A DNA stretch of 64,000 nucleotides, taken from Fidelibacterota bacterium (GTDB lineage Bacteria > Fidelibacterota > UBA8477 > JABMPR01). A model generated the notes under the pieces. It was not told the DNA's origin and ran no database searches. It saw only the letters and a list, made by a program, of their open reading frames with translations. Both the position numbers and the translations under genes were made by a program. Shown piece by piece: positions 1,571 through 35,588 of this stretch. The stretch spans positions 1-64,000 of the forward strand of contig JAIPJF010000003.1 of NCBI GenBank assembly GCA_021734325.1, written 5' to 3'. Each line of letters starts with the position of its first letter. Within the stretch, counting starts at the first letter, position 1.

Positions 1571-1811
1571 TAAAGCCACCCAATGAATAGGTTGCTTCAT
1601 GCTTTCGGAACCAAATTTCGCACTTTCTGAGCTCCGCCCGACAGGCGGGGAGATTTCACAGCTCGCTCCGCTCCTGTGTTCTCCGAGGTTACGCTGTAAG
1701 CTCTCCGGCTGAACCGAATCCCGCAGTAGGCGGGACCCGACCTTTTTACCCCGCACTTGCGGTGGCCCGGCAATCCTATCGGGACGCGCTAACCGGCTTT
1801 TATCATAAAGT
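1571..1811 (-). repeat. tRNA-Pro tail copy 4 (most diverged, with nested palindrome insertions)
   Basis: On the minus strand this 241-bp segment carries the same landmarks as the tRNA-Pro 3' part: D-arm piece CCGGTTAGCGCG, T-arm and acceptor pieces, and the GGTGGCTT-type hairpin. It is interrupted by several GC-rich insertions: plus-strand TCCCGCAGTAGGCGGGA (1719-1735), CCGC-ACTT-GCGG (about 1751-1762), CCCGGCAATCCTATCGGG (about 1767-1784) and a 35-nt block at 1612-1646 shared with copy 3. It is the copy farthest from the functional tRNA and the most degraded. Confidence 0.7.
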
Positions 1812-1957
1812 AAAAGCCACCCAATGAATAGGTGGCTTCATGCTGTCGGAACCAGACTTCGCTCTTTCTGAGCTCCGCCCGACAGGCGGGGAGATTTGAA
1901 CTCCCGACCTTCCCGACATACATGTCGGGACGCGCTAACCGGCTTTTATCATAAAGT
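1812..1957 (-). repeat. tRNA-Pro tail copy 3
   Basis: A 146-bp unit in tandem with copies 2 and 4. It keeps the D-loop/D-arm 3' part, T-arm, acceptor 3' strand and terminator-like hairpin of tRNA-Pro. The anticodon arm is replaced by the palindrome TCCCGACATACATGTCGGGA at 1911-1930. A 35-nt block (1853-1887), containing CCGCCCGACAGGCGG, splits the acceptor strand exactly between CGGAAC and GGGGAG (plus strand). The 5' acceptor strand and 5' D-stem of a tRNA are absent, so this cannot be a working tRNA. Confidence 0.8.
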
Positions 1958-2068
1958 AAAAGCCACCCAATGAATAGGTGGCTTCATGCTGTCGGAACGG
2001 GGAGATTTGAACTCCCGACCTTCCCGACATACATGTCGGGACGCGCTAACCGGCTTTTATCATAAAGT
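1958..2068 (-). repeat. tRNA-Pro tail copy 2
   Basis: A 111-bp unit nearly identical to the 3' part and terminator of the functional tRNA-Pro next to it, with one C/T change in the hairpin flank. The 17-nt anticodon arm is replaced by the 20-nt palindrome TCCCGACATACATGTCGGGA at 2022-2041. The flanks CCGACCT and CGCGCTAACCGG (plus strand) are kept exactly. Lacks the 35-nt insertion seen in copies 3 and 4. Confidence 0.85.
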
Positions 2069-2101: not shown

Positions 2102-2102
2102 G

Positions 2103-2177
2103 TCGGAACGGGGAGATTTGAACTCCCGACCTCTTGACCCCCAGTCAAGCGCGCTAACCGGGCTGCGCTACGTTCCG
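2103..2177 (-). tRNA. tRNA-Pro (anticodon GGG)
   Basis: The minus strand folds as a full cloverleaf. Acceptor CGGAACG pairs with CGTTCCG, with discriminator A. The D-stem is GCGC/GCGC. The anticodon stem CTTGA/TCAAG carries loop CTGGGGG, giving anticodon GGG. The T-stem is GGGAG/CTCCC with loop TTCAAAT. It totals 75 nt without encoded CCA. It is the only intact member of a four-unit tandem array. A run of T on the minus strand's 3' side is supplied by the hairpin at 2069-2101. Confidence 0.93.
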
Positions 2178-7300: not shown

Positions 7301-7336
7301 GTACACACTTGAGGCAAATCATATATATTCGCAATG

Positions 7337-7424
7337 CAACACGGGGTGCCTGGTGACGCGATATCGTCGGAGGCTGAGATCAAACCCTTTGAACCTGATC
7401 TGGATCATGCCAGCGTAGGGAGAT
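7337..7424 (+). promoter_or_regulatory. TPP riboswitch (THI box)
   Basis: The conserved THI-box cores are present in order: GGGGTGCC, GGCTGAGA, ACCCTTTGAACCTGATCTGG, ATCATGCCAGCGTAGGGA. The variable P3 hairpin lies between the first two (GACGCGATATCGTC). The 3' conserved GTAGGGAGA is also the ribosome-binding site of the TonB receptor that starts at 7429. Thiamine pyrophosphate binding would therefore be expected to hide the ribosome site and shut off translation. Confidence 0.95.
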
Positions 7425-7428
7425 CGAC

Positions 7429-9741
7429 ATGCTAAACAAATCACACCTATTTATTTTCCTTTTACTCTTTTCACGTCTTTTTTTAGAAGCAGCATCACCA
7501 TCTTTTGATGGAAGGGTGATCGATATGCATACAGGTGAGGGAATCCCTGGTGTGGAAATCTTGTCCGGTCTGGTAGGAACGATCACTGACCAGAGTGGAT
7601 ACTATCGATGGAATGGTACCCTGGCTGACAGTCTGAAAGTCCGTTGTATGGGCTATGAGACCCTTCAAATCGCATCGGAGGATGTCACATCAGTGCTTGT
7701 TCTCAAAGCACGGGTTCTCGAGGGACAGAGTATTCATATAGCAGCCAATCGTGTCATTCCCGGGATCAGCCCGGTGGCTTATTCCATTCTTGAACCACGG
7801 GAAATTGAATCTCGCTACACGGTAGAGGACGTGCCCATGATCCTTAGTTCGGAAGTTGGGATTCACGCCTATAGTGAATCAGGGAACGGTACCGGATATT
7901 CCTATGTTTCAATTCGGGGTTTTGATCAAAGCAGAATCGCCGTCATGCTGGACAATGTCCCCCTGAATGACAATGAGAGTCATCAGGTATACTGGGTCGA
8001 TCACGGTGATATTTTAAGCAGCGCGAAAGATATTGAAATTCAGCGGGGAGTAGGCAGCAGCCTCTATGGTGCCAGCGCCTTCGGTGGATCCATCAACATT
8101 CACACGGGAATAAAATCAGAACACGAATCGATCAGCCTTGGCGCATTGAATGGCTCCTTTAATACTGAGAAATACCGCCTGGCCTACAAATCGGGTCAGC
8201 GCTTTGGCGACAATCTTAGCGTCAGCCTGAGAGCTTCCATTCTGAACTCAGACGGTTACCGCGTCGATTCACGTTCTGAGCAGAATTCCGTTTCTCTGGC
8301 CATCGAGCAGAGGGGACACGGGATCACAAATCAGCTCCGGGGGATCATTGGCAAGGAATTCAGTGTCCTTCAATGGGACGGCATCAGCAGGGAATACCTC
8401 GAAAACAGAACGCTTCGCCGTCAAAAGATGAGCTGGACAGTTCCATTCACTGACGATTTCTTGCAGCAGATATACTCCCTCAACACCCGCATTCAGTTAA
8501 ACCCTCATTCGACGATCAGAAATGTCACTTATCTGGTCAAGGGAAGCGGATTTTACGAGGTCCAGAAATACGGACAGGACTTCTACACCTATAATCTTGA
8601 TGTAAATGATATTTATCCAGATTCAATTGAATTGGGTTTTGAGACAGATCTCCTGCGGCGCAAATGGATCAACAATGTCTATTACGGGATCACACCGGTC
8701 TGGACCCGGGAGAGCAAACGCTGGCGCTCGGATATTGGATTGGAGCTGCGAACATATAAAGGCGATCACTTTGGTGAAGTGATGAATGTCAGTGATTCCA
8801 CACTGCAATCAATTTTGCCAAAAAACTATGAATACTACAGCTATGCCGGGAATAAATCGGTGACAACCCTGTTTGGTCATTTCCTGATCAGGATCACACC
8901 AAAATTAAACACCTCTCTGGACTTGCGCGCCCAGCAGATCAAATGGCAACTGGATCAGGAAAAGATTGGACATGCACAAGGTGTTGACCTGACGGCTGAT
9001 TGGCAATTCTTCGATCCCAGATTTGGACTGAACTATGCACTCAGTGATGCTTTCAATCTTTTTATCAGTCGGGGAGTGGCCAGCATGGAACCGGCAGATG
9101 CGCAGATCATTGAGGCGGATGATGTTTGGAGCAAACCTACGCCAGCGGAAGCAGAGCGTGTGATCAATACGGAGATCGGTGTCAATTATTTTAGCGGAGC
9201 AACCCGATTTTCCCTCAATCTGTATCGTATCGAATACCAGAATGAACTCCTCAGCGATATTTATGATTTTCAGGACGGTGGATTTACTGTTGAAACGGCA
9301 GATCAAACACTCCATCAGGGAGTAGAAATCGATATGCGATCCAGACTTTCTGAAACGCTGGAATTAAGTCTGAATGGGACCATCGCTGAACATCGTCTGA
9401 GCAATCAGGGTGAGAAGGGAAATTATATTGCCAACGTACCTGGCATTTTATCAAATGGGCAAGTACGCTATGACCATAATGATCATTTGCATGCTGCTCT
9501 ATCCCTGAAATACGTTGGGAAACAGTTTATTGATCAGGACAATACAGAGGATATTGCCATTCCAGGATATGTCCTCACTGACCTGTTCCTTCAGTATGAA
9601 CTCTCAAAATTGTTGCTCGAATTTAAGTTGAATAACCTTCTCAACACACAGTATGCAACTTTTGGTTATAACTACTATGGGGCTTATTATTGGCCGGGGG
9701 CAACTCGTAATTATTCTCTGAGCATGAATTATTCATTTTGA
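7429..9741 (+). CDS. TonB-dependent outer-membrane receptor, predicted thiamine(-precursor) uptake
   Basis: A 770-residue receptor. It has a signal peptide (about residues 1-22) and a CarboxypepD-regulatory-like domain at about 25-95 (GRVIDMHTGEGIPGVEIL). The plug domain follows at about 105-230 (SYVSIRGFDQSRIAVMLDNV, SSLYGASAFGGSINI). The beta-barrel ends in an aromatic residue (SLSMNYSF). Family members move scarce solutes across the outer membrane using TonB energy. The TPP riboswitch directly upstream is what points to thiamine or a precursor as the substrate; comparable TPP-controlled receptors are known in Bacteroidetes. A WecB-like gene follows 40 bases downstream and may be co-transcribed. 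Confidence 0.9.
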   Translation: MLNKSHLFIFLLLFSRLFLEAASPSFDGRVIDMHTGEGIPGVEILSGLVGTITDQSGYYRWNGTLADSLKVRCMGYETLQIASEDVTSVLVLKARVLEGQSIHIAANRVIPGISPVAYSILEPREIESRYTVEDVPMILSSEVGIHAYSESGNGTGYSYVSIRGFDQSRIAVMLDNVPLNDNESHQVYWVDHGDILSSAKDIEIQRGVGSSLYGASAFGGSINIHTGIKSEHESISLGALNGSFNTEKYRLAYKSGQRFGDNLSVSLRASILNSDGYRVDSRSEQNSVSLAIEQRGHGITNQLRGIIGKEFSVLQWDGISREYLENRTLRRQKMSWTVPFTDDFLQQIYSLNTRIQLNPHSTIRNVTYLVKGSGFYEVQKYGQDFYTYNLDVNDIYPDSIELGFETDLLRRKWINNVYYGITPVWTRESKRWRSDIGLELRTYKGDHFGEVMNVSDSTLQSILPKNYEYYSYAGNKSVTTLFGHFLIRITPKLNTSLDLRAQQIKWQLDQEKIGHAQGVDLTADWQFFDPRFGLNYALSDAFNLFISRGVASMEPADAQIIEADDVWSKPTPAEAERVINTEIGVNYFSGATRFSLNLYRIEYQNELLSDIYDFQDGGFTVETADQTLHQGVEIDMRSRLSETLELSLNGTIAEHRLSNQGEKGNYIANVPGILSNGQVRYDHNDHLHAALSLKYVGKQFIDQDNTEDIAIPGYVLTDLFLQYELSKLLLEFKLNNLLNTQYATFGYNYYGAYYWPGATRNYSLSMNYSF

Positions 9742-29642: not shown

Positions 29643-29729
29643 GGAGACGTGGCCGAGTGGCTTAAGGCGGCGGCTTGCTAAGCCGTTGTACGTTTTGGCG
29701 TACCGTAGGTTCGAATCCTACCGTCTCCG
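29643..29729 (+). tRNA. tRNA-Ser (anticodon GCT)
   Basis: An 87-nt class II tRNA. Acceptor GGAGACG/CGTCTCC, discriminator G, and D-arm GGCCGAGTGGCTTAAGGC. The anticodon stem GCGGC/GCCGT has loop TTGCTAA, giving GCT. The long variable arm is TGTACGTTTTGGCGTAC and the T-arm is GTAGGTTCGAATCCTAC. No encoded CCA; a T-run (GTTTTTT) follows at 29731. Confidence 0.95.
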
Positions 29730-29730
29730 C

Positions 29731-29933: not shown

Positions 29934-30016
29934 GGAGGTGTAGGCTAATTGGTAAGTCAGCGGTCTTGAAAACCGCCGTCCGTGAGGACTTGGGAGTTCG
30001 AGTCTCTCCACCTCCG
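29934..30016 (+). tRNA. tRNA-Ser (anticodon TGA)
   Basis: An 83-nt tRNA with acceptor GGAGGTG/CACCTCC and discriminator G. The D-stem GGCT/AGTC has one G-T pair. The anticodon stem GCGGT/ACCGC carries loop CTTGAAA, giving TGA. The variable arm is GTCC-GTGA-GGAC and the T-arm GGGAG-TTCGAGT-CTCTC. The type II variable arm and the anticodon agree on serine. Its T-arm and acceptor end are duplicated 310-360 bases downstream, on the far side of a GIY-YIG gene. Confidence 0.9.
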
Positions 30017-30061
30017 CACAACTTCGTTCGATTAACAAGAGAGCGAAGATCATCATCCACA
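30008..30061 (+). repeat. tRNA-Ser tail repeat, copy A
   Basis: The first copy of a direct repeat that begins in the tRNA acceptor end (CCACCTCCGCACAACTTCG...) and runs up to the GIY-YIG start codon. Positions 30008-30060 are identical to 30368-30420 over 53 bases. The following ATGAAATA is also shared. Confidence 0.95.
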
Positions 30062-30322
30062 ATGAAATACTACACATACATTCTTCAAAGCAAGAAGGAT
30101 AATCGATATTATATCGGTTCTACTTCAGATATGGAACGAAGATTAAAGGAGCATAATTCCGGTAAAACCAAATCTCTGCGATTTCGAAGACCGCTAGTTT
30201 TGATTCATAAAGAAGAATTCGATTCAAGAGAATCCGCTGAAACTCGAGAGAAACAGATCAAATCCTATAAAGGTGGTATAGCATTTAAAAAGCTAATCTC
30301 TGGGAGTTCGTCCCGCCAATAG
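30062..30322 (+). CDS. Small GIY-YIG nuclease inserted behind tRNA-Ser
   Basis: An 86-residue single-domain GIY-YIG protein. It shows YTYIL (positions 4-8), YYIG (16-19), the basic helix MERRLKEHN with Arg 27, and catalytic Glu 63 in TREKQIK, so the active site looks intact. Related small proteins are often annotated as UvrC-like or UPF0213 but lack UvrC domains. The frame is open upstream through the tRNA, but the ATG at 30062 aligns with the family start. The last codons (GSSSRQ, stop TAG) are supplied by a copy of the tRNA T-arm (TGGGAGTTCG) and by the palindrome TCCCGCCAATAGGCGGGA. It lies between duplicated tRNA tails, as a mobile or homing element would. DNA cleavage is known of the superfamily; mobility here is inference. 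Confidence 0.85.
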   Translation: MKYYTYILQSKKDNRYYIGSTSDMERRLKEHNSGKTKSLRFRRPLVLIHKEEFDSRESAETREKQIKSYKGGIAFKKLISGSSSRQ

Positions 30323-30421
30323 GCGGGATTCGTTTCACTCAGTCTCTGTACCCCGCCAACGGCGGGGCCACCTCCGCACAACTTCGTTCGATTAACAAGA
30401 GAGCGAAGATCATCATCCACT
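30301..30421 (+). repeat. tRNA-Ser tail repeat, copy B, split by two palindromes
   Basis: The second copy of the T-arm/acceptor end. TGGGAGTTCG (30301-30310) is followed by a 30-nt insertion (30311-30340, TCCCGCCAATAGGCGGGA plus 12 bases), then AGTCTCT. A 20-nt insertion (30348-30367, with CCCCGCCAACGGCGGGG) follows, then the 53-bp block identical to copy A. Removing both insertions restores the tRNA-Ser T-arm exactly. Confidence 0.92.
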
Positions 30422-30469
30422 ATGAAATATCACACATATTTTCTATGTAAGTTGAGTGAGAACGGTTAA
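30422..30469 (+). pseudogene. Remnant of the first codons of a second GIY-YIG gene
   Basis: Directly after tail copy B the frame reads MKYHTYFLCKLSENG then stop. It mirrors the intact gene's start MKYYTYILQSKK at the same distance from its tail repeat. The rest of the gene is missing and replaced by AT-rich palindromes, so this looks like an older, truncated insertion. Confidence 0.65.
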
Positions 30470-30478
30470 TTATTAATA

Positions 30479-30631: not shown

Positions 30632-30659
30632 ACCTGCAGTCGACAGAGTTCTCTCTATT

Positions 30660-30736
30660 CGAGGACAGTTTTAATTCGATTAACATGAGAACGAAGATCA
30701 TTATCCACGATAAAACACCATATATTTTCTATTATT
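30660..30736 (+). repeat. tRNA-Ser tail repeat, copy C (degraded)
   Basis: TTCGATTAACATGAGAACGA (from 30675) and the following AGATCATTATCCAC align with the spacer of copies A and B with a few mismatches. CATATATTTTCTAT then matches the truncated GIY-YIG start of copy B. The tRNA acceptor end is no longer recognisable. The remaining bases to the next gene hold no feature I can name. Confidence 0.65.
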
Positions 30737-30888
30737 GGCCAGATCGATAATTGAATTCCTTTGGGGGTGTTTATGCTATTGTCAATAACACTTCAATAAT
30801 TTATAATTCTATTGGGCGTGAAAGGTTCTCTGCATAAGTTTAGTCTAGTTTCCTAAATAGACGTAACTCTATCCTTGTGGGGGGTGCT

Positions 30889-32547
30889 ATGTTTATCAAA
30901 AGACTTCTCGTTTGCCTTCTGATTGTTTCAATGCCATTTAGCTATGCAAAAAATGTTTCCTGGCCTACGGATCTCAAGAGGTTCACTAACCGAGGTACGA
31001 AACAAAAGGGAGTTGTTGACATCCCTTTTTCACATACCGGGGAATATCTTATCGAAGATTTTCAGTGTGGGCACCATTTCAACCCTCGTAATAATACACT
31101 CTGCACTTCATATAATGTAATTGATAGTGTAATCATTGCAGCAGAAGATAGTGTCCTGGATAAACGGTTATTCTCCTATAGTGAAAATGGTAGAATGCTC
31201 TCGGATGAAGTCATGCGAAAGAAAGGTCTCTCAGCGTGGGACAAATTGTGGAAACGCAGTTACACCTATGATAGCGATGGAAATGTGATTAGTTATTCAA
31301 GCGGACCCTTGCAGGATACGACATGGGTTGTCACCAACCTTACTACACTTTTTTACGACATCGATGGACGCATAAAAAGCCAATTTTTTCAGAGTGGGTA
31401 TGGATTTCCCTTAGATATTGATTCTAGACAGACTTACTCATATGACAACGATGGAAATTTGATCAACCAGCTAGTTGAAGATTGGGAAGAACCGTTCTGG
31501 ACAATTAAAGAGCAGTGGATATATGACTATGATGTAAATGGCAATATCACCTCACATGTCCATGAGGAGCGAGATGGCAATGAATTATTAGATGGATGGA
31601 GAAAAACGTATACCTATGATTTTCGAGGTAACTTGGTTTCATATTTAATTGAGAATTGGAATGGCTCTAGGTGGATACTTGAAGAAAGAACTACATTCAC
31701 CTGTGATGATAGTGGAAATATGGCTACCTCTCTTTATGAAATATGGAATGATCTCGTTCTAGTGGAAAGTTGGCGATATACCTATACTTATGATAGTAGA
31801 GGATACAAAACTTTTTCCTTAGTCGAAACATGTTCCGGTTCTATATGGGAACCTGTAACCCTGTATGCCTATAATTACAACAGCAAAGGTGATATTTTTT
31901 CCATAGCAGATGGAGAATATACTTCATCTGGCTGGGAATATCATTGGCGAGACACTTATTCATACGACAGTTTTGGAAATATTACTTCACACCAGTATGA
32001 AGTAACTAATAATGATTCTATCTGGGAGCCATATTGGAGAAAATTGAAAGTATTCGATACCAATGGAAATTTGATCTCTTTTCGAAATGAGTTTCTGGAT
32101 TGGGATCGTTCTGAATGGCAAACATATGCCGATGAACTAATCATTACAGACCATCTCGATAATGAATATTCTTTTTGGGGTCACTATGGAGATTTGTATT
32201 ATTCAACCAGTGAGCCAGCTGCTGCAGTCCAAAGTTCATTAATCACCCAATTATCCTTGGTTCGTAATTACCCGAACCCATTCAACCCAAGCACAACAGT
32301 TGAATATGAAGTCCCAGAACAAGCGGATGTCACACTGATCGTCTACGACATCAATGGACGAGTTGTCCAGACACTTGTCTCAAAATCTCAACCTGCCGGA
32401 AGATACAAGGTGATTTGGGACGGATTGAATAGTGAAGGGAAGCAAATGAGTGGGGGAGTCTACTTAGCCAAATTGCAGGTCGTGGATTCCTATATGGGCA
32501 GTACATCTGGCTACTCAAGTACTATAAAGATGGTGTATTTACGATAA
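30889..32547 (+). CDS. Secreted YD-type repeat protein with C-terminal sorting/FlgD-like domain
   Basis: A 552-residue exported protein. A signal peptide covers about residues 1-20 (MFIKRLLVCLLIVSMPFSYA). A repetitive region of about 36-40-residue units follows at about 100-430, each with a YxYDxxGN core (YTYDSDGNVISY, YSYDNDGNLINQ, YTYDFRGNLVSY, YSYDSFGNITSH), like RHS/YD repeats. The last 90 residues form a beta domain (NYPNPFNPSTTVEYEVPEQA, VYDINGRVVQTL, AGRYKVIWDG, SGGVYLAKL) typical of type IX-like sorting or FlgD-Ig tails in FCB bacteria. ATG 30889 is used because GGGGGTG precedes it. Its base composition is more AT-rich than its neighbours. Confidence 0.8.
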   Translation: MFIKRLLVCLLIVSMPFSYAKNVSWPTDLKRFTNRGTKQKGVVDIPFSHTGEYLIEDFQCGHHFNPRNNTLCTSYNVIDSVIIAAEDSVLDKRLFSYSENGRMLSDEVMRKKGLSAWDKLWKRSYTYDSDGNVISYSSGPLQDTTWVVTNLTTLFYDIDGRIKSQFFQSGYGFPLDIDSRQTYSYDNDGNLINQLVEDWEEPFWTIKEQWIYDYDVNGNITSHVHEERDGNELLDGWRKTYTYDFRGNLVSYLIENWNGSRWILEERTTFTCDDSGNMATSLYEIWNDLVLVESWRYTYTYDSRGYKTFSLVETCSGSIWEPVTLYAYNYNSKGDIFSIADGEYTSSGWEYHWRDTYSYDSFGNITSHQYEVTNNDSIWEPYWRKLKVFDTNGNLISFRNEFLDWDRSEWQTYADELIITDHLDNEYSFWGHYGDLYYSTSEPAAAVQSSLITQLSLVRNYPNPFNPSTTVEYEVPEQADVTLIVYDINGRVVQTLVSKSQPAGRYKVIWDGLNSEGKQMSGGVYLAKLQVVDSYMGSTSGYSSTIKMVYLR

Positions 32548-32583
32548 ACCGGCATATCACTTTCGCAAAAAGGATATTGCTCT

Positions 32584-33744
32584 ATGCGCATTCCTGAAGT
32601 CGAATGCTGTACGAATCCGTCCCCATTTTTAATTTCTCTCTTGTTCCTCGCATTTATGCTTGCCTGTTCCAAACCAACAGAGAAAATCGAACCTGTAATC
32701 TGCGAAGAGGGGTGGTATCCCTGCGGGCCAGACTCTCAAACGTGTTGTCTGGATACCACTAGCCATGAGTTTACATGGGTGATTGACACCTTTGGAACGT
32801 TTGGAGGCAGCATCCAGGATGCAGCGATCATCAGCGAAAATGATATCTGGCTGGCTGGGCGAGTGGGGTTTGAATCTTTCGACTCGTTGGGGATAAGAAC
32901 TTTAGTCTGGTACAATGCCATTCATTGGGATGGCTTCGAGTGGACCTATTATGAAGCCTGTGGAAACACATTGCTAAAAAGTGTTTATGCTTCCAGTTCT
33001 GATGATGTATGGTTTGTGACCGGGAACGATATCATTCACTATGATGGGAATGCTTTTACAATTGTTTACCAATCAACTTATGGCAAAGTCAATCAAGTTA
33101 CCAAGGTCTGGGGCAGTTCTGGTGAGAACATTTACTTTGTGGGCAATGATGGTATCATAGTGTACTACGACGGATCAACCTTTACCAGCGCCCAGCCTGA
33201 AGCAGACTCAGATTTCATAGGTGTGGCAGGTACTCCTGATGGTGAACATATATTTGTCCTGAGTGAGTCCATATCTGATGGAGAAGGAAATATCTTGCTT
33301 CATTCCAGGAATAATCTGGATTTCTGGGAAACCATCAAGTATCCATTATCTACGGCACTGGGGTTTGACCCACCTCTTGCGTTCTGCCTGGATGTTGTTG
33401 GGGATAATGTCTATATCCCAAAGAATCTGGAACTGTGGAAGTATAATATTTCCTCTAGACGATCCACCCTGAATGGAGGTATTGATCACATCTATGAGCG
33501 GTACAGGTTCATTAAAGGACTTTCAGAGAGTGATATCTTTTACGGTACCACGAACTTCGACTACCTGCATTACAATGGAAGTGATTATTTTTACGCGAAT
33601 GCTCTGGAAGATGAATATAGATATCTTCTTCTCCGTGGTGGGGATTTCAAGGATAATACCGTCGTAATGGTGGGGAGTTTTGAGAGCAACTTGTGGCCTG
33701 GGAAGGCTTTGGTAGCCAGGGGCTACAGAAATGAATCACACTGA
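32584..33744 (+). CDS. Lipoprotein with propeller-like repeats, unknown function
   Basis: A 386-residue lipoprotein with a signal ending FLAFMLACS (Cys 28). The early part has a Cys-rich stretch (CEEGWYPCGPDSQTCC). The body has repeated strands such as SSDDVWFVTGNDIIHYDG, SSGENIYFVGNDGIIVYYDG and SESDIFYGTTNFDYLHYNG, which suggest a beta-propeller. There is no catalytic motif. It lies 36 bases after the YD-repeat gene, and the two form the cassette between the paired-palindrome repeats. Confidence 0.7.
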   Translation: MRIPEVECCTNPSPFLISLLFLAFMLACSKPTEKIEPVICEEGWYPCGPDSQTCCLDTTSHEFTWVIDTFGTFGGSIQDAAIISENDIWLAGRVGFESFDSLGIRTLVWYNAIHWDGFEWTYYEACGNTLLKSVYASSSDDVWFVTGNDIIHYDGNAFTIVYQSTYGKVNQVTKVWGSSGENIYFVGNDGIIVYYDGSTFTSAQPEADSDFIGVAGTPDGEHIFVLSESISDGEGNILLHSRNNLDFWETIKYPLSTALGFDPPLAFCLDVVGDNVYIPKNLELWKYNISSRRSTLNGGIDHIYERYRFIKGLSESDIFYGTTNFDYLHYNGSDYFYANALEDEYRYLLLRGGDFKDNTVVMVGSFESNLWPGKALVARGYRNESH

Positions 33745-33809: not shown

Positions 33810-35588
33810 TTACATCGGCCAGATAATCGGGATCAATATCACACCCACAATACCTAGAATAATATGCAGAGGGATACCTGCCTTCAGGAAGTCCGTATAA
33901 CGATACCCACCAGGTGTGAACACCATGGTATTGGTCTGATATCCATTGGGTGTCATGAATGACAGGGATGCTGCAAACATGATGGTCATGATAAAGGGCA
34001 GAGCATTCAAACCCAACAAACCGGCTGTTTTTAGTGCCAGGGGCGTCATGATGATCGCTGTGGCTGAATGAGATAAAAATGAGGTCATGAGCATGGTTGT
34101 AAAGAAAAGGACAGCTATCAGTCCCATTTGTCCAAAGCTATCACTGGCAATGTTGATCAAACCACCAATATGGTCAGCCAGACCGATGGTATCCATGGCA
34201 GCTCCCAGAGGGATGAGGGCGGCAATCAGAAAGATGACGGACCAATTGATAGCTTTATAGGCTTCCTGAGGTGGTACAATCCCCGTCGCCATGACCACAA
34301 TCGCACCCAACAAGCTGGCTTCCATGATGCTCATGATATTCAGGGCCGCGAGCCCAACAACCAGAGGAATGATGGCTACAGCTAGCCACCAGTATTTGAT
34401 CTTGTGTAATGCATGATCAAGTTCGTCCAGCATGATAAAGTTTGGATCTGTGTGTAGCGCAGACATTCGTGTCCTTGAACCAAAGATTAATAGCGTATCA
34501 AATTGCTTCAGTTTGATATGACCGATCTTCTTGTTGGCGACCTCCCGGTAATGCCTTACCGCCAGAACGAACAAGCCGTAACGCCGTCTGAAGTCAATTT
34601 CCATCAGGGTCGAACCAGCAAGTCTTGAATTTGGGGAGACCATGGCCTCTACCAGAATATTCTCGTTATTGGCCAGCTCATTGTCATTCATCTTCACATC
34701 AGTAAGGAGCAGGACTTTCTGCTCTGTCCGGAATTGCTGTAGCTTTTCAACCGAGATCTTGATCAGGAGAGTGTCATCGGACCTGAGGATGATATTTCTC
34801 AGATTCGTCGTAATGTGATTCTTACCTCTAATAATATCCAGGACAGTCAGCTCGTAGTTTACTCCCAGATTCATATCCATGAATTTATTGCCCACCAGGG
34901 GAGATTCATCGGTAAGCTTGACCTCGGTCAGATAGGTCCCAAGGTGATATTTATGAGTCAAACCCGAAATGGCAACCCGGGAGGGGAGAATCCACTTCTG
35001 AGCGACCAGGATATAAGCCAAGGTAATTGCAACGAGAATCAGTCCCAGCTTACTCAATTCAAACACACCGATCTGATAACCTGCAGCCAGAGCGATATCA
35101 TTCACGATCAAATTGGTGGATGTCCCGATTACTGTGCAGGTGCCACCCACGATAGCTGCAAATGAAAGAGGGATCATGATTTTGGACGCGCTCATCTTCA
35201 ATCGATTTGAGAGTTCTGAGGCCGCAGGAATCAGCAGGGCGACCGTAGCTGTATTGTTGATAAAAGCTGAGAATATGGAAACGGACAGCAGAAAGAGTGT
35301 AGAAACCAACCAATTAGTGCCCTGCCCAATATTTTCAATCCAGACTGTAAAAACCCGAATAAATCCAGTCTTCGTAAAGGCATGGCTTAATACGAACATG
35401 GCCCCAATCGTAATGACGGCCTTATTTGAAAAACCAGAAACCACCTGATCCTTATCGATCAATCCCGTCAGGAGCAGGGAAGACAGAATGATCAATGAGG
35501 TTACCTCAATGGGAAACCATTCGCGAATAAAAGCGATCAATGAAACGATTAATATCGCAAGGAATATGAGAGTTTGCGTATCGGGCAT
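33810..35588 (-). CDS. SLC13-family (DASS) anion permease with TrkA-C domains, paralogue 1
   Basis: A 592-residue inner-membrane carrier with about 11-12 membrane segments split by a hydrophilic centre (about residues 210-380) containing two RCK/TrkA-C-like domains. This plan is typical of SLC13 permeases for sulfate or dicarboxylates. The first substrate/sodium loop reads FINNTATVALL. The second, usually SNTAT, is SHSATAIIMTP here. It lies downstream of its paralogue on the same strand, separated by 77 bases. Confidence 0.85.
   Translation of the reverse strand: MPDTQTLIFLAILIVSLIAFIREWFPIEVTSLIILSSLLLTGLIDKDQVVSGFSNKAVITIGAMFVLSHAFTKTGFIRVFTVWIENIGQGTNWLVSTLFLLSVSIFSAFINNTATVALLIPAASELSNRLKMSASKIMIPLSFAAIVGGTCTVIGTSTNLIVNDIALAAGYQIGVFELSKLGLILVAITLAYILVAQKWILPSRVAISGLTHKYHLGTYLTEVKLTDESPLVGNKFMDMNLGVNYELTVLDIIRGKNHITTNLRNIILRSDDTLLIKISVEKLQQFRTEQKVLLLTDVKMNDNELANNENILVEAMVSPNSRLAGSTLMEIDFRRRYGLFVLAVRHYREVANKKIGHIKLKQFDTLLIFGSRTRMSALHTDPNFIMLDELDHALHKIKYWWLAVAIIPLVVGLAALNIMSIMEASLLGAIVVMATGIVPPQEAYKAINWSVIFLIAALIPLGAAMDTIGLADHIGGLINIASDSFGQMGLIAVLFFTTMLMTSFLSHSATAIIMTPLALKTAGLLGLNALPFIMTIMFAASLSFMTPNGYQTNTMVFTPGGYRYTDFLKAGIPLHIILGIVGVILIPIIWPM

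Follow-up and report, generated by a model that had tools for sequence, protein, structure and literature searches.

Small GIY-YIG nuclease genes between intact and spoiled copies of tRNA genes: what looks like an undescribed mobile element that keeps one copy of its essential target alive

In dozens of independent genomes, a gene for a small GIY-YIG nuclease sits between two copies of its target tRNA, one intact and one spoiled, an arrangement that looks like an undescribed mobile element invading essential tRNA genes whilst one copy is kept alive. The architecture was recognised in the window, the whole stretch of 64,000 nucleotides analysed here, from a genome of Neomarinimicrobiota (G000), and was not found described in the open-licence papers searched. 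The explanation that we favour, and consider probable, is that homing-type elements invade tRNA genes and duplicate the gene they target, whilst one copy stays functional. Its observed basis comprises the architecture in its two mirror forms, sites seen both empty and occupied, scars, units that stand in tandem or lack a gene, palindromes in tRNA arms, purifying selection in scorable pairs and a link between nuclease and tRNA isotype.

Two tRNA genes of the window are affected (Table 1). Past tRNA-Ser(TGA), the nuclease gene ends within one continuous displaced tRNA tail, made up of TGGGAGTTCG, a first insert, AGTCTCT, a second insert and CCACCTCCGC. Each insert contains a perfect palindrome; the nuclease (P0001) takes its final codons from the displaced T-arm and terminates at a stop codon inside the palindrome loop. 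A sequence-only reading of this stretch had already described a nuclease gene enclosed by copies of the tRNA-Ser tail, an exact 53-bp repeat, a T-arm piece recurring at 30301 and, further on, a truncated second gene and an older third repeat. Each of these features was confirmed: the repeat (30008-30060 and 30368-30420) is exact and belongs to an extended match of 77 nt at 94%, and the remaining elements lie at the positions tabulated. Missed at that stage were the palindromes marking the spoiled copy and the unity of the T-arm copy with the 53-bp repeat. Because truncated second and decayed third gene starts follow the displaced tail, the locus was once an array, at least two or three units long. 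Chance is excluded as the origin of the arrangement, since the pattern CCCGCC..GGCGGG occurs twice in the 64 kb, both times at the tRNA-Ser locus, against 0.02 expected. Two ORFs (30877-33744) separate this locus from a transporter gene (33810-35588), the end of which seems to lie directly past the tRNA in several relatives; a TPP riboswitch is present at 7332-7438 (Rfam, 63 bits).

Table 1. Features of the tRNA loci in the window (positions from its first letter).
Feature	Position	Strand	Support
Further gene-less tRNA-Pro units; the second unit has TCCCGACATGTATGTCGGGA instead of the anticodon arm	1785..1942	-	
Gene-less unit: tRNA-Pro t17-28, TCCCGACATGTATGTCGGGA for the anticodon arm, then t46-76	1991..2053	-	
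Intact tRNA-Pro(GGG), second affected tRNA	2102..2177	-	ARAGORN
tRNA-Ser(GCT)	29643-29730		
Intact tRNA-Ser(TGA), occupied target	29934..30017	+	ARAGORN; Rfam tRNA 55.3 bits
Spacer with TTCGTTC..GAGCGAA hairpin	30018..30061	+	
GIY-YIG nuclease gene (P0001, 86 aa)	30062..30322	+	Pfam GIY-YIG 4.9e-18; AF2 model pLDDT 86
Displaced tail piece 1, TGGGAGTTCG (T-stem 5' and first half of T-loop)	30301..30310	+	
Palindrome insert 1, in displaced T-loop, 30 nt: TCCCGCCAATAGGCGGGA + 12 nt, in full TCCCGCCAATAGGCGGGATTCGTTTCACTC	30311..30340	+	
Displaced tail piece 2, AGTCTCT	30341..30347	+	
Palindrome insert 2, near displaced T-stem end, 20 nt with CCCCGCCAACGGCGGGG, in full GTACCCCGCCAACGGCGGGG	30348..30367	+	
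Displaced tail piece 3 (CCACCTCCGC) and second spacer copy	30368..30420	+	53/53 identical
Second GIY-YIG gene, truncated start	30422..30444	+	
Third, decayed spacer and gene start	30656..30732	+	62% identity

The breadth of the arrangement emerges from 80 loci, gathered by protein query only and containing 90 GIY-YIG ORFs. For 70 of these ORFs a tRNA or tmRNA is found no more than 300 bp away, sharing their strand in 70/70, and such tRNA-linked genes occur in at least 18 named phyla; UPF0213-like ORFs from the same searches, an internal control with the same domain, had a tRNA nearby in 0/10 cases. The tRNA lies downstream of 45 of the linked genes and upstream of 25, and the notion that it must be upstream was dropped once this mirror class appeared. 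In the first form an intact tRNA is followed by the gene and then a spoiled 3' copy; in the second, a spoiled partial 5' copy is followed by the gene and then the intact tRNA, which the gene end often overlaps by 10-23 nt. The two are versions of one thing, because at the same tRNA-Arg the spoiled copy is upstream in L227 and downstream in L231, with similar proteins and the same palindrome position in the D-loop. Against a null of mismatched tRNAs and regions, a spare copy scored above the 99% point in 49 of 69 gene-tRNA pairs. The spare tRNA-Pro of L093 and L095 is almost complete, its main difference being a D-arm replaced by a palindrome. The original idea that the tRNA tail, or 3' end, is what becomes duplicated holds at the window and is too narrow beyond it, 5' ends being duplicated at least as often. 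No relative of the protein was found on viral contigs, and plasmids and phages gave only matches below 45% identity.

That these loci reflect ordinary tandem duplication with a bystander ORF, or an artefact of metagenome-bin assembly, is very improbable. Arrays of identical units do exist (G036) and most of the genomes are metagenome-assembled, but the full structure is present in cultured isolates (Flavobacterium xinjiangense L147, Marixanthotalea L127 and Paucihalobacter L116), which refutes this as a general explanation. The pattern also falls within single contigs of 2.8 Mb and 2.56 Mb (L042, L103), and neither the regularities of strand, arm and palindrome nor the empty sites of relatives fit such an origin. 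Gene-bearing units of tRNA-Asp form arrays of three and four in L041 and L042, with the T-arm or half of it replaced by a palindrome.

Invasion by a homing-type element is supported by site variation. Within the window's genus the tRNA-Ser(TGA) site could be read in 16 genomes: it is empty in three (G008, G012, G018), holds the window's element type in five (G000, G009, G014, G015, G017) and a different GIY-YIG subfamily, in some cases decayed, in five more (G003, G005, G006, G011, G013), whilst G002 retains a gene-less decayed scar of the window type with both palindrome positions recognisable, and only a hairpin remnant survives in G007 and G016 (the latter partly masked). Looking for empty sites in close relatives had been proposed from the window alone; in G009 the displaced tail joins directly the homologous flank of the empty sites. 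Flavobacterium offers a second case at tRNA-Arg(TCG), where 28 of 30 loci are without an upstream GIY-YIG gene (one of these, L231, carries the mirror arrangement), and where the upstream flank of occupied F. xinjiangense is homologous to that of empty L222 up to the displaced 5' copy, the intact tRNA of the occupied genome being identical to that of the empty site. As in free-standing homing endonucleases, the gene lies outside any intron or intein, and a conserved site exists as empty and occupied alleles; in a departure from them, the target is wholly or partly duplicated in the 49 pairs above. The proposal of a tRNA-associated mobile element that leaves a functional tRNA behind is thereby supported, by the scars as well as by both sets of sites. 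Further observations concern the spacer. The window's hairpin is missing in G009, G014 and G017, whose genes begin 4-5 bp past the tRNA. A second GIY-YIG subfamily stands at the tRNA-Ser(TGA) 3' end in L061, L062, L063, L070 and L075 with the tail not duplicated, and its hairpin, TTCGTTCGAA..GAACGAAG, is similar to the window's spacer.

The same site variation bears on an RNA-level function, in which the gene would be co-transcribed with the tRNA, the spoiled half would act as a processing or regulatory hairpin, and the whole would be kept for the benefit of the host and moved only by ordinary duplication. The invariable shared strand speaks for it, as do genes that lie a few bp from tRNA ends or overlap them, stop codons placed inside the tRNA D-loop or a palindrome, and the arm-like hairpin of similar length kept in several spoiled copies. 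It is nevertheless improbable: empty sites are common, as the Flavobacterium loci illustrate, scars and decayed genes occur, and many tRNAs are used, with isotype tracking but no detected phylum signal.

Palindromes mark the spoiled copy. A perfect stem of at least 6 bp is found in 73% of the spare copies that exceeded the null; the figure is 5.5% for control windows taken from the same loci, 8% for shuffles and 16% for intact tRNAs. When survey loci, loci from relatives and two Flavobacterium loci were pooled, 54 palindromic interruptions could be assigned a position. Every one falls in the D, anticodon or T arm or next to it, and the acceptor stem contains none. Some are insertions, most commonly in the D-loop or D-stem (t21-23) and in the T-loop, and the others take the place of an arm, sometimes matched in length (15 for 15, 13 for 13). 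The earlier view of a T-arm-targeting element is supported as to mobility and tRNA linkage and too narrow as to the arm, which is one of three affected. Several unrelated palindrome types are in use, and no constant tag was seen beside them when the flanks were read by eye.

Units without a gene, which go beyond the earlier interpretation, are found in the window itself. Three of them follow tRNA-Pro(GGG) on the reverse strand (1560-2177); the first two swap the anticodon arm (t29-45) for TCCCGACATGTATGTCGGGA, and the second and third have an extra insert at the border of T-stem and acceptor. Elsewhere in G000, gene-less spare copies of tRNA-Val(TAC) and tRNA-Pro(TGG) have the anticodon hairpin exactly replaced by TCCCGAC..GTCGGGA, and one of tRNA-Asp(GTC) has its T-arm exactly replaced by the same palindrome (together loci L203, L207, L210 and L205). 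Eight GIY-YIG genes are present in G000. Six of them come directly past a tRNA or tmRNA and share its strand: one each at tRNA-Ser(TGA), tmRNA, tRNA-Ala(CGC) and tRNA-Ala(GGC), and a tandem pair at tRNA-Lys, with palindrome-bearing tail copies at the tRNA-Lys and tRNA-Ala(GGC) loci too. Of the remaining two, we read one as UPF0213-like and the other, which is longer, as carrying a UvrC-type domain. Palindromes of this type number 17 in G000, nine of them in the neighbourhood of a tRNA gene and most of these within about 150 bp; they are enriched at tRNA genes, yet not confined to them. The window had suggested such confinement, a view that was dropped when genome searches gave dispersed copies. 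In L201, L202 and L204, a larger inverted repeat has a dispersed TCCCGAC..GTCGGGA palindrome in its loop.

The protein has the marks of the GIY-YIG nuclease superfamily. The catalytic Tyr, Tyr, Arg and Glu are present in the fold, and 20 diverse members share Tyr6, Tyr17, Arg27, His31 and Glu63 without exception. An AlphaFold2 model of P0001 matches UPF0213 BH0048 first, then SLX1 and then I-TevI, with 1zg2 among the matches; SLX1 is a cutter of branched DNA. The protein is under purifying selection in scorable pairs, because dN/dS between orthologues is 0.06-0.31 in pairs with unsaturated dS, most pairs being saturated. Its tree (88 columns, weakly resolved) follows tRNA isotype, which requires 27 changes against a minimum of 35 in 500 shuffles, or 24 against 25 when Bacteroidota are left out. 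Phylum labels (27 changes, shuffle mean 27.5) did not differ from shuffles, weak evidence given the narrow shuffle range, and neither did the side, upstream or downstream, on which the gene lies.

In another alternative, mobility belongs to the palindromes themselves: REP-like hairpins would move, perhaps single-stranded, into tRNA hairpin loops or swap arms, the tRNA duplication would be the rescue of survivors, and the GIY-YIG gene would be a mover, in the way that RAYT, an HUH (Y1) transposase, serves REPs, or a passenger. Dispersal of the palindromes (17 in G000, several to about 45 matches in some Flavobacteriaceae), the position of some in the loop of another inverted repeat, the exact arm swaps of the gene-less tRNA-Val, -Pro and -Asp units and the SLX1-like, branched-DNA fold suggested by the model all point this way. 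We nonetheless regard it as unlikely, since palindrome counts in the genus do not follow those of the gene (G002, with 10 palindromes, has no P0001-like match), the palindrome types are several and unrelated, the flanks read contain no constant tag and the unit no transposase, and gene and architecture go together in 18 named phyla.

If homing-type elements they are, several known systems invite comparison. Integrase islands insert into tRNA genes, regenerate the tRNA end and leave a direct repeat, as is seen here; the present unit, of about 0.4 kb, differs in a GIY-YIG ORF as its sole ORF with no tyrosine or serine integrase, in the palindromes of the displaced copy and in 5' as well as 3' duplications. 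The nearest known parallels are SegB of phages and the gene-end-replacing mobile ORFs of fungal mitochondria. SegB of phages T4/T6, a GIY-YIG endonuclease of tRNA regions that drives tandem amplification, and other free-standing GIY-YIG homing endonucleases share a stand-alone gene among tRNA genes, a target in the tRNA region and intronless homing; they are, however, phage-borne and placed between tRNA genes, and the excerpts of these sources describe no spoiled tRNA copy, mirrored tRNA duplication or arm palindrome (PMC13096335, PMC2988022). In the mobile ORFs of Allomyces atp6 and Glomus atp6/atp9/cox2/nad3, an endonuclease ORF arrives with a substitute gene end, which comes to lie before it, and the native end is displaced to a position after it; they differ in residing in protein genes of mitochondria, in being mostly LAGLIDADG in Glomus and in a clearly diverged foreign end, and neither a 5' mirror form nor a hairpin swap is described in the excerpts of that source (PMC3630166). 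The order of new end, ORF and displaced native end was found in the tRNA-upstream class (G009 compared with G008, G012 and G018), whilst a chimera comparison of the kind made in Allomyces meets two tRNA copies so nearly identical that a foreign half could not be told from a native one. Bacterial group I introns with homing endonucleases likewise represent nuclease-driven invasion of tRNA genes, although here the tRNA is kept by duplication rather than splicing (PMC3984707), and no group I intron was found in the window at the Rfam gathering threshold. Three relatives of the protein do lie beside group I introns (L113, L122, L132), two of which interrupt tRNA-Thr and tRNA-Asn, tRNAs that also have spare fragments. 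REP/RAYT systems resemble the present loci in their small dispersed palindromes (PMC3733652); here, reading of the flanks revealed no constant tag, and the palindromes are concentrated in tRNA arms.

How such a homing-type element might work can be sketched from these comparisons. It would be a minimal mobile element, its sole protein a GIY-YIG nuclease of about 80 residues and its target a particular tRNA (or tmRNA) gene; the intact copy would keep the cell alive, and the other would be spoiled by a GC palindrome in, or in place of, a hairpin arm. The nuclease would break one arm of a tRNA gene that is still unoccupied. An occupied donor, with tRNA copies on either side of the gene to provide homology, would serve as the template for repair, and the gene would be copied in together with a second tRNA copy, whatever sequence lies around the target. 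If a palindrome stood where the cut is made, it would lie between the homology arms and always be transmitted, which would fit the constant palindrome position in a given tRNA, and a target arm conserved across phyla would let the element cross phyla whilst staying with its tRNA. We infer nuclease activity, a cut site at the palindrome and homing by double-strand-break repair, and the palindrome may mark or destroy the cut site. The weak point is the intact tRNA, which is unchanged in occupied Flavobacterium, so that an enzyme reading tRNA sequence only should cut its own host; the nuclease would have to be restrained, context-reading or structure-reading. Gene-less units with the same palindromes, and palindrome counts that do not track gene counts, also tell against homing. 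Arm-for-arm swaps, dispersed palindromes in other hairpins and the SLX1-like fold keep a structure-specific, palindrome-centred mechanism alive. More tentatively, and with somewhat less than an even chance of being right, the loci could represent a new class of mobile element, spread over many bacterial phyla. Its mini GIY-YIG nuclease would be structure-specific and would recognise, at the DNA level, the hairpin arms of tRNA genes; it would duplicate the tRNA on both sides of its own gene and swap an arm of the spare copy for a palindrome, allowing parasite and essential gene to coexist.

As tRNA genes are essential, any element that invades them must avoid killing its host, and the known solutions are splicing and integrase-made tails. 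The solution here, at either end of the tRNA, is to keep one tRNA copy and spoil its twin with a palindrome, tRNA-linked genes being present in at least 18 named phyla. If this reading is true, it would explain many of the genes annotated as 'GIY-YIG nuclease family proteins', would account for the tRNA fragments and palindromes that lie beside tRNA genes, and would provide a small model of the way in which free nucleases turn into gene-splitting elements.
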